Shown here: positions 1 to 10,631 of the stretch, in pieces | How positions within the stretch are numbered: the first letter of the stretch is position 1 | Layout: each line of letters opens with the position of its first letter | From: a virus | Reading direction: 5' to 3' (one strand) | IMG/VR virus record: IMGVR_UViG_3300014050_001238 | Span: 1 to 25,020 of that record | Length of the DNA stretch: 25,020 nt | The notes under the pieces: model-generated | What the model saw: only the letters and a program-made list of their open reading frames with translations | What the model was told of the DNA's origin: nothing | The model's database searches: none | Position numbers and translations under genes: made by a program

Positions 1-318
1 CTGTTCATCAAACTCTTTACTTGCAAAAGATAATCCTTCACCAAAAGCCTGATTCTTAAACTGCGGATACATTGTAGTGAATTCATAGGTCTCGCCATCA
101 ATGGCCTTCTGTAAACATTCTTTGGTAGATGGTTTACCAATCAATAATTCTAGGTGTCCCCATGCATGAAGTAATTCTTGGTCAGCGGTATGTTCAAAGT
201 GTTTTGCCACTTCTTCAAAGCCTTCTTCACGAGCAATCTTGGCGAAATAACGGTACTTAATGTGTGCTTGACTTTCGCCTGCCAATGCACTTTCAAGGTT
301 TTTAATTGTAATAGACAT
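1..318 (-). CDS. Rubrerythrin (ferritin-like diiron protein), C-terminus cut by the window edge
   Basis: The 106 visible codons match the N-terminal four-helix diiron domain of rubrerythrins. An AGESQA motif (Glu ligand) is followed by a helix with a Y-x-Y-F pattern, the ELLHAWGH segment supplies the E-x-x-H ligands, and GETYEFTTMYPQF resembles the family's E-x(n)-MYPEF segment. Rubrerythrins reduce hydrogen peroxide in the cytoplasm. The usual C-terminal rubredoxin-like Cys4 domain would lie outside the window, so its presence is unknown. The ATG at 318 follows a good Shine-Dalgarno (GGAAGGAAATT). The gene has its own promoter at 364-392 with a palindrome at 342-359 between promoter and start, so it may be separately regulated. 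Family assignment is strong; a role in protecting the infected cell from peroxide is inference. Confidence 0.88.
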   Translation of the reverse strand, partial: MSITIKNLESALAGESQAHIKYRYFAKIAREEGFEEVAKHFEHTADQELLHAWGHLELLIGKPSTKECLQKAIDGETYEFTTMYPQFKNQAFGEGLSFASKEFDEQ

Positions 319-430: not shown

Positions 431-660
431 ACCATTGTTGAGAATACTGTTCCGTGTTTAAGAACTCGTGGGTGGATTTATCAAAAAGTATAGGCGCCTA
501 TCTTTATGCGTTACCACAATCGTCAGTTGTTCTCTTAGCTTTGCGCTTTCAATCTAACTTTTGCATTGTTAGATAATCTCCTTTTTGCGGATGCGGTTTC
601 TAAGATAGTGTTTTCCTTAACAGTCAGGATTGCTTACTCTTTCTCTCACATTCTCAACAA
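431..660 (-). ncRNA. Putative structured RNA directly 3' of tRNA-Thr, closed by a 15-bp helix
   Basis: No open reading frame is visible. On the minus strand the segment starts with ACCATTGTTGAGAAT (664-650) and ends with its exact reverse complement (445-431), so a perfect 15-bp terminal helix closes about 200 nt. The first four bases, ACCA, are the encoded 3' end of the tRNA, so the two RNAs share bases. Internal elements include a perfect 7-bp hairpin (ATCTAAC/GTTAGAT, 574-568 and 558-552), a 6-bp helix TCTTAG/CTAAGA that competes with a 7-bp CTATCTT/AAGATAG pairing, a CAAAAAG/CTTTTTG pairing that would form a pseudoknot, and a GTTC/GAAC hairpin near the 3' side. I do not recognise a named family. 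Phage tRNA-linked RNAs (T4 RNA C/D, GOLLD and similar) are analogies by position only. Confidence 0.55.
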
Positions 661-734
661 TGGTGCCCCTTGATGGAATCCAACCACCAATCCATGATTA
701 CAAATCAAGTGTTATAGCATTTAACTAAAAGGGC
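661..734 (-). tRNA. tRNA-Thr (anticodon UGU) with encoded CCA and unusual D/T loops
   Basis: The 74-nt cloverleaf has a 7-bp acceptor stem (GCCCTTT/AAGGGGC, one G-U pair), a 4-bp D stem (GTTA/TAAC), an anticodon stem with one T-T mismatch, the anticodon loop TTTGTAA (anticodon TGT), a 4-nt variable loop, a 5-bp T stem (GGTGG/CCATC) and a 3' ACCA. G1-C72, C2-G71 and anticodon bases G35-U36 are known threonine identity elements. The T loop is TTGGATT instead of TTCGATT and the D loop has GC instead of GG, so the 19-56 tertiary pair appears swapped. The 5' end lies 5 nt after the stop of the preceding gene, so the tRNA is probably processed from the upstream transcript. Confidence 0.85.
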
Positions 735-1009: not shown

Positions 1010-1858
1010 TTACTCTCCAAGCGAAAAATTAATCTGTTTTACAGAATCCCAGCGAAAACTACGCCAAGCTTGTGCTTCTGTGTCCCAAACTGCTAACGCT
1101 TCGTCTGATTTTTTGCGAGAATTAGCAGAATTTTCAGAATTTGTCGCTTCAGGAATGAAATCTTCACTCAAAGTAGCTTGCATCACTCGTTCCGTGCCGT
1201 CTTTTTTGATAAAAGTAACACCAACTACTCGTTCACGCAACAATCCTTTCAACCATTCACGACCAATTTCATCAGCAAACGCATTTTTTGCAGGTTCATC
1301 ACTTACACTTAACGCTTCAAACTCTTTTTTCAATTCTTCTAGCGCTTCAACCATATCATCCTCTTCACTTTCTTCTTCATCTTCAAATTGGTCACGCAAA
1401 TTATACTCATCAATCAATTCTTCAGGTATATTTTCAACATCTTCAGCATTAGAATACTCATAGCAGTCATCTTGACCTGCAATATTGCTGCCAACGAAGG
1501 CCATGCCAGGTTCCCAATAGGTAGCAGTAACATACCATTCAGTATTTTGTGCTACGAAATCGTAAAATATCGTTGGCGGTGCCCATGCTGTATCAAAATT
1601 TAGTGTGATACAATTGTCATTGACCTTTTCCCACGAATAAATGCTTGCTTCCCACTTGGTACCCCAATTAGAAATGTTCCAATCATACCAATTTTCTTCT
1701 TCTTCAGCTGGTCTTGGTCTAAAAAAGGCAAATAGACCAGATTCAATGTTATTATTACTCTTATTTTCATCAAGGAATTTCAAGTGTGCTTCTAGTTTTG
1801 CAACTTCGGCAACATCATCATTGTGAAACTCAGCATTATTAGCACACCAATTAGGCAT
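1010..1858 (-). CDS. Two-domain protein: Api92/YubB-like N-terminus plus WYL_2 (Sm-like SH3) C-terminus
   Basis: A 282-residue protein. The start MPNWCANN and the later W-rich stretch (NWYDWNISNWGTKWEAS, FDTAWAPPTIFYDFV) fit the Api92-like/DUF1281 ferredoxin-fold family of phage and plasmid proteins. A very acidic linker (about residues 150-180, rich in Glu/Asp) leads to a C-terminal domain with VGVTFIKKDGTERVMQATL and AVWDTEAQAWRSFRWDSVKQI. That is the pattern of the WYL_2 Sm-like SH3 barrel found as a free-standing protein in many T4-like phages. The substrate of either domain is unknown. The fusion itself is notable. It is followed by the 88-residue gene after 3 nt. Confidence 0.85.
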   Translation of the reverse strand: MPNWCANNAEFHNDDVAEVAKLEAHLKFLDENKSNNNIESGLFAFFRPRPAEEEENWYDWNISNWGTKWEASIYSWEKVNDNCITLNFDTAWAPPTIFYDFVAQNTEWYVTATYWEPGMAFVGSNIAGQDDCYEYSNAEDVENIPEELIDEYNLRDQFEDEEESEEDDMVEALEELKKEFEALSVSDEPAKNAFADEIGREWLKGLLRERVVGVTFIKKDGTERVMQATLSEDFIPEATNSENSANSRKKSDEALAVWDTEAQAWRSFRWDSVKQINFSLGE

Positions 1859-9911: not shown

Positions 9912-10071
9912 CAGGCACCTGTGGTACGGGAGGTTTTCTTATTGTTTCATTGATAATATCGGTGATAGACTTATTGGTCTTTCTAAACTGTGGTTGTGAG
10001 TAAGTCTTTGGATTCATCCAATCGGGCAATGGTTCAATGTCATCGGGTTCACCCCAAAAGTTATTGTTCAT
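9886..10071 (-). CDS. Small proline-rich hypothetical protein, 61 residues
   Basis: Low-complexity polar protein, N-terminus MNNNFWGEPDDIEPLPDW, C-terminus rich in Pro (RKPPVPQVPDEPTNP). Probably mostly disordered. ATG at 10071 overlaps the upstream stop (ATGA). No family recognised. Confidence 0.7.
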   Translation of the reverse strand: MNNNFWGEPDDIEPLPDWMNPKTYSQPQFRKTNKSITDIINETIRKPPVPQVPDEPTNPTE

Positions 10072-10631
10072 AGTTTTTTAATGAGAATAATCTTCTTATT
10101 CTCTCCTGTTGGCTTCACAAATAGTTCCTTTAGTTCGGTGTTACTGTGCCATTTCATACTGGATGACTTATGCTTAGGTAGGCCTGCGGTCTCGCCTATT
10201 TTTGACCAGTTATCGGCAAGGTACACGGCACCATTCTTACCTGCACCGACAAAGGTGATAATATGGGTCAATTCATCGCCATACTTGGCCTGCCATGCAA
10301 TTGGTGCCTGTCGGCGGAGTTCTTTCAATACTCTGGTGCCAACATTCTGTATGGATTTTATCATACAAAAGCGCCAATTGTTGGCAATGGTATTAAAGAC
10401 TGCCTTGTATTCTTCTTTGGAAAGGGAGAGGTGACGGAGTATATCTTTGGGTGGTGGGTAAACAGAGCTGCCTAACCCTATCATGCCAACTGTTTGACCT
10501 TCATAATTAATCAACCAATCTATACGGCGCCCAACAGAGGCATTGCTTGGCACATAAGAATGGTGGTTCTCAATGATATGCTTAACTATATCCTTCTGGT
10601 CTTGCCTTGTTACTTCAACCAGCTCAATCAT
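10068..10631 (-). CDS. DruA (DUF4338) / Mom-like protein, possible DNA-modification or nucleic-acid enzyme
   Basis: 187 residues. The succession HHSYVPSNASVGRRIDWLI, GQTVGMIGLGSS, IANNWRFCMIKSI, then ELRRQAPIAWQAKYG, ITFVGAGKNGAVYLADNW and IGETAG follows the pattern of the DUF4338 core of DruA from the Druantia defence system: xHHY...GR...I, G.xxG.xGxxx, NNTRF, RRLxxDWxxRYG, ETFV, GTCY.AANW, xGxTxG. That core is thought related to GNAT-like phage Mom enzymes that modify adenine. I infer a DNA-modification-like role, not defence, because it stands alone in a phage early/middle operon. Catalytic residues cannot be assigned from sequence alone. Confidence 0.65.
   Translation of the reverse strand: MIELVEVTRQDQKDIVKHIIENHHSYVPSNASVGRRIDWLINYEGQTVGMIGLGSSVYPPPKDILRHLSLSKEEYKAVFNTIANNWRFCMIKSIQNVGTRVLKELRRQAPIAWQAKYGDELTHIITFVGAGKNGAVYLADNWSKIGETAGLPKHKSSSMKWHSNTELKELFVKPTGENKKIILIKKL

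Follow-up and report, generated by a model that had tools for sequence, protein, structure and literature searches.

The window, i.e., the whole stretch of 25,020 bases analysed here, is a fragment of a virus record and encodes both subunits of ribonucleotide reductase as well as a primase, whose best relative among isolated phages is found in a methylophage myovirus (43% identity). Only one tRNA gene, a tRNA-Thr(UGU), was called in the window by ARAGORN, and directly behind it lies a perfect 15-bp inverted repeat (664-650 with 445-431) that shares the last four bases of the tRNA. The tRNA and the RNA bounded by the repeat are placed as follows:

661-734, minus strand: tRNA-Thr(UGU) gene, abutting the RNA in this phage (ARAGORN; Rfam RF00005, 56.4 bits)
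431-664, minus strand: the whole RNA, bounded by the two strands of the outer helix (146.6 bits with covariance model R1, E 3.6e-43 over 0.5 Mb of sequence, a score to be read with the window sequence being part of the R1 training set)

In a preliminary description of this DNA, the repeat was read as the outer helix of a discrete structured RNA with a gene-free interior. The perfect helix is present, with a chance expectation near 1e-4 in about 250 nt according to a base-composition estimate, and the interior is gene-free in that no ORF longer than 40 aa is found within 425-670. The fold of 425-680 gave a z-score of -2.22 against shuffles, which is modest alone and only mildly better than the shuffled sequences, so that the question was left to comparison among homologs. 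Scanning the surroundings of the RNA in the window for consensus signals revealed neither a terminator nor a convincing promoter of its own. Downstream of the RNA lies a Rubrerythrin-like gene (1-318, minus strand; E 3e-15), the upstream region of which contains an 18-bp palindrome, CTAAGTATTAATACTTAG, at about 342-359. Elsewhere in this phage genome, the 187-aa product of 10068-10631 (minus strand) matches Pfam DruA (Druantia protein; E 7.6e-10), and a 282-aa protein (1010-1858, minus strand) carries a WYL_2 domain at its C-terminal end, its two parts finding their matches in distinct proteins from other phages.

With a 17-base pattern taken from the window, three further phages plus one near-identical one were retrieved, and in these first relatives the ends agreed and the middles differed. 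The set was widened by one 3′ pattern, two 5′ patterns and one core pattern, with members accepted through a filter demanding a fitting pseudoknot. Covariance model R1, the E-values of which come from a short calibration, scores all 53 main-set members (E 1e-57 to 1e-18), matches L053, L075 and L234 though these lie outside its training alignment, and finds 22 more contigs beyond the main set. Also matched is G045 (L298:4838-5015; E 7e-33), whose record was retrieved solely through a neighbouring protein and without any RNA pattern. Homologs are thus found on 76 contigs of IMG/VR phages, and the structured RNA that had been proposed proves to be a covarying family. Its members range from about 170 to 240 nt in length and occur as one copy per record in all 26 records with a strong match. 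The RNA is widespread in environmental phages, yet it was not found in the isolated-phage collection INPHARED, where three blastn queries returned only tRNA-Thr or chance matches. An exact-pattern search of 84,980 prokaryote genomes, of a kind that would miss divergent copies, gave 110 matches, none of which had the 5′ motif and helix. Presence is patchy even among close relatives; L002 is 97.8% identical until the tRNA CCA ends and diverges from there on, and its 81.5-kb record holds no convincing R1 match (best E 0.07). No published description of the RNA was found in the literature searched, the reach of which excluded preprints and most subscription papers.

The core is compact, with P1 closing the ends, P1b just inside it, the P2 loop pseudoknotted, and P3 followed by P4:

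650-664, minus strand: P1 5′ strand ACCAUUGUUGAGAAU (perfect inverted repeat, covariation)
431-445, minus strand: P1 3′ strand AUUCUCAACAAUGGU (both-side changes in 14 of 15 pairs among 53 homologs; 93.3% of cells paired)
647-649, minus strand: P1b 5′ strand GUG, partner of CAC at 454-456 (variant pairs in homologs)
454-456, minus strand: P1b 3′ strand CAC (P1b helix 96.9% paired)
630-646, minus strand: J1/2, conserved unpaired joining segment AGAGAAAGAGUAAGCAA (GAAAGANUAAGCAA near-invariant)
614-629, minus strand: P2 hairpin UCCU-GACUGUUA-AGGA (closing-pair exchange; strongest covarying column pair)
619-624, minus strand: ACUGUU, the 5′ strand of the pseudoknot, located in the loop of P2; partner of 446-451 (100% of cells paired)
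446-451, minus strand: AACAGU, the 3′ strand of the pseudoknot, adjoining the P1 3′ strand on its 5′ side; partner of 619-624
600-605, minus strand: P3 5′ strand UCUUAG (covariation across the family)
533-538, minus strand: P3 3′ strand CUAAGA (covariation across the family)
552-574, minus strand: P3 inner hairpin AUCUAAC-AAUGCAAAA-GUUAGAU (both-side changes in all five pairs)
462-532, minus strand: P4 arm (GAAC...GUUC), a variable cassette (four P4 pairs 94.8% paired; cassette exchange)
456-463, minus strand: UCUUAAAC, nearly invariant, at the base of the P4 arm, with its UC within the P4 3′ strand and its final C within P1b

Comparison of the 53 homologs indicates that this fold, including the pseudoknot, is preserved by paired mutations. 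Standard pairs fill 94.6% of 1,997 pair cells, vs. 78.1% when the 3′ partners are shuffled and 44-52% when they are slid; both-side changes occur in 32 of 38 pairs, and the covariation score is 0.500 vs. 0.174. P1, P1b, P2, P3 and P4 are each kept while their bases change. P1b has the family-wide form GUG with CAC or CAU and the variants GCG/CGU (L044, L233, L248, L258), CCG/CGG (L075) and AUG/CAU (L113), the closing pair of P2 swaps among C-G, U-A and A-U, and P3, which is UCUUAG/CUAAGA in the window, is UCCUG/CAGGA or CCCU/AGGG in other members. Two inner hairpins covary as well, and the core further contains conserved unpaired purines and an invariant AAAC. The pseudoknot is near-invariant apart from ACUGGU/ACCAGU (L044), ACUGAU/AUCAGU (L248 and L258) and ACUGCC/GGCAGU (L075), the G-C and A-U replacements of L044, L248 and L258 in the scored set all falling at one pair; it is also present in the model-based match L298.

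The P3 and P4 registers were located partly by pairing, and together with the pseudoknot filter this makes the statistics of these elements flattering. All pairs of columns lying four or more columns apart were also scanned in a hand-anchored core alignment, against a simple null in which an equal number of changes is replayed on the tree. Of the six top-ranked pairs, five fall in the proposed helices (three in P1 and one each in P2 and P3), with an unrelated pair ranking fourth and only the top two exceeding every null value. Homologs beside tRNAs with a covarying outer helix do exist, and the two outcomes named beforehand as refuting the RNA, kept coding frames and missing covariation, were looked for and not seen.

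The interior elements of the preliminary description fared unevenly. The perfect 7-bp hairpin is the one at 552-574 and is a genuine part of the family fold. As to two mutually exclusive helices, TCTTAG/CTAAGA (600-605 with 533-538) is P3 and stands, whereas CTATCTT/AAGATAG is lost in the close relatives L042 and L046, and a two-state switch is thus unsupported. The proposed CAAAAAG/CTTTTTG pseudoknot can be drawn in the window but is likewise lost in L042 and L046 and is incidental; the true pseudoknot, between 619-624 and 446-451, had been overlooked.

The copies of the RNA are located among tRNA genes. Fifty of the 52 scored copies lie within tRNA arrays, which contain up to 25 tRNAs, and all are on the tRNA strand; the two without a nearby tRNA, L234 and L247, are related contigs. 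A tRNA begins within 20 nt downstream in 29 copies. The upstream tRNA, in contrast, is abutted in only 15 of the 52, is of six kinds in these (Gly, Asn, Thr, Arg, Tyr and Leu), and may be hundreds of bases off in the others. In the window, the first four bases of the P1 5′ strand (ACCA, 664-661) are the discriminator and CCA of the tRNA, as had been noted, and a continuity of the two RNAs with mutual control of their processing had been proposed on this basis. As a family property this is not supported, since few copies abut a tRNA and in only 7 of those 15 could all four bases of NCCA find partners at the 3′ end of the RNA (a count from the sequences). Given the small number of abutting copies and the six tRNA kinds, the pairing of the CCA is an accident of where the RNA happens to lie; the same P1 positions pair elsewhere without any tRNA, showing that P1 belongs to the RNA. 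The RNA has a gene of its own within the tRNA arrays, and the tRNA CCA sometimes happens to supply the first bases of P1. Of 45 records tested, 11 were found to encode the T4 capsid protein family, so that about a quarter are demonstrably T4-like; many of the remaining records are fragments.

Core and arms have different histories in several pairs of phages. L226 and L242/L254 have identical 5′ cores and P4 arms only 46% alike, and L097 and L099 have cores 98% alike with P4 49% alike; conversely, the cores of L103 and L234 are 67% alike and their P4 arms 96% alike. These comparisons show that the P3/P4 arms pass from one lineage to another as cassettes, independently of the core. Clustering of the P3 interiors at 65% identity merged all of them into one and was uninformative.

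Structured RNAs have been met among phage tRNAs before. The cages of the GOLLD and ROOL type are homo-oligomeric RNA nanocages, ROOL being several hundred nt in size, and T4 encodes the small stable RNAs C and D, of unknown role, inside its tRNA cluster. That no named family could be assigned to the RNA had been stated from the outset, and this was borne out by Rfam 15, which at both gathering and permissive thresholds returned only tRNA, tmRNA and chance matches for the window and its homologs; the GOLLD, ROOL (cmscan) and ribozyme models gave no match in either. GOLLD is a structured phage-encoded RNA, and ROOL is a phage and prophage RNA with multiple pseudoknots; both are often near tRNA islands and have no known function (PMC12286853). 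Their niche is shared by the RNA, 50 of 52 copies of which lie among same-strand tRNAs. However, GOLLD exceeds 800 nt in many members, vs. 170-240 nt here, and ROOL is larger and has other conserved sequences. GOLLD and ROOL are therefore the closest analogues, with the same niche but a different fold and size. RNAs C and D are alike in niche, and the three queries of the phage collection, T4-like phages included, found no match to the RNA. The RNA is best filed as a new family among the orphan structured RNAs of phage tRNA islands.

Two other assignments were tried and rejected. An RNase P-like reading, suggested by GAAAG and ACAG motifs, fails in that the topology differs and no model matches. 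For a retron-like or mobile-element reading, no reverse transcriptase was found among ten window proteins scanned; P1 varies with compensation, which identifies it as an RNA helix rather than terminal repeats. Permuted (two-piece) tmRNA is a structured RNA of the same tRNA arrays but a separate gene (L254:4393-4759 and L228:5008-5330(-)), and tmRNA models match these other places in L254 and L228, never the RNA. Both permuted tmRNAs resemble betaproteobacterial ones, which makes betaproteobacteria plausible hosts.

We consider it rather probable that the RNA is a stand-alone phage gene acting in trans, transcribed together with the neighbouring tRNAs and freed by the nucleases of tRNA maturation. 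In tRNA operons, RNase P generates the 5′ end of the following tRNA and endonucleases cut after the CCA, and the same enzymes would excise the RNA from the tRNA transcript. The folded core would then expose the conserved purine-rich strand (GAAAGANUAAGCAA) and AAAC, and the RNA, or an RNA–protein particle, would engage a host target in trans during infection. The conserved core would be the working part, and the exchangeable P3/P4 arms would set or vary the target recognised. A bolder version, which we advance tentatively as one possibility, is that of an RNA machine of the phage whose pseudoknotted core is fixed and whose recognition arms are interchangeable, acting in trans on a host target such as the translation apparatus or a defence nuclease that cleaves tRNA. 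The machine would often be encoded beside a second, uncatalogued partner RNA. If true, this would be a class of phage effector not described before.

A specific form of trans action, conceivable though doubtful, is that of a counter-defence decoy or RNA antitoxin mimic, which would bind a host RNA-targeting defence protein. The arm exchange would then reflect an arms race, and the patchy presence (e.g., the absence from L002) and the location in tRNA arrays would also fit; a cyanophage with an abiF RNA provides a precedent (PMC9964418). However, nine loci searched against Rfam at E up to 10 showed no likeness to any Rfam RNA, with neither an abiF RNA nor an RNase P match, and no bacterial counterpart was found with the one pattern used on the 84,980 genomes.

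The position between tRNAs might instead reflect a cis-acting processing element, in which P1 is a double-stranded cutting signal or insulator between tRNA precursors and the interior is self-cleaving or filler. The inclusion of the upstream CCA in P1 in 7 of the 15 abutting copies favours this reading, as do remnants in which the interior is wholly gone and a 40-nt P1 hairpin is left in the same place. These P1-only alleles, which surfaced through a search for the neighbour RNA described below, represent two separate lineages, L300 (5824-5864) and L301 (1066-1106) with L303 and L304, and suggest either that the RNA is dispensable in some phages or that P1 has a role of its own. Two further candidates, L313 and L314, were rejected as chance hairpins outside tRNA arrays. 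Nevertheless, we regard a cis element as unlikely, because the RNA occurs once per record in arrays of up to 25 tRNAs, its neighbours vary and are sometimes hundreds of bases off, and a cutting signal needs no strongly constrained core or pseudoknot.

That core, compact and pseudoknotted like those of ribozymes, with conserved unpaired purines and the invariant AAAC, could also point to a self-cleaving or otherwise catalytic RNA. Such activity appears distinctly improbable, as neither an Rfam ribozyme nor RNase P is matched, P1 pairs both ends, and no consistent cleavage-site sequence lies outside P1. A chance inverted repeat beside a tRNA, with no structured RNA, would agree with the modest folding z-score of -2.2 but is refuted by the covarying family on 76 contigs and has virtually no standing.

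The spaces between the tRNA genes of a phage cluster are usually taken for gaps, yet some of them hold a well-folded, strongly constrained RNA, for which a tested fold and a search model are now available. GOLLD and ROOL have been without a function for years, and this small analogue, which shares their niche and has exchangeable arms, offers a more tractable way into the question of what makes phages retain structured RNAs in their tRNA clusters.

Another uncatalogued structured RNA is often found directly upstream: in 13 loci, a conserved segment of some 165 nt separates the upstream tRNA from the RNA. Its alignment, A4, comprises L045:808-972(-), L048, L079, L095, L097, L099, L103 and L107, together with L113, L230, L238, L261, L298, L300 and L301, and no match to Rfam was found. 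At the DNA level, TTATGCACA/TTATCCACA in its 5′ hairpin resembles a DnaA box, which is probably a coincidence, as the variable base of this site covaries with its RNA partner. The 5′ hairpin covaries, with both-side changes in 8 of 24 predicted pairs, and the loop AUCCCUA could pair with the 3′ loop UUAGGGA.
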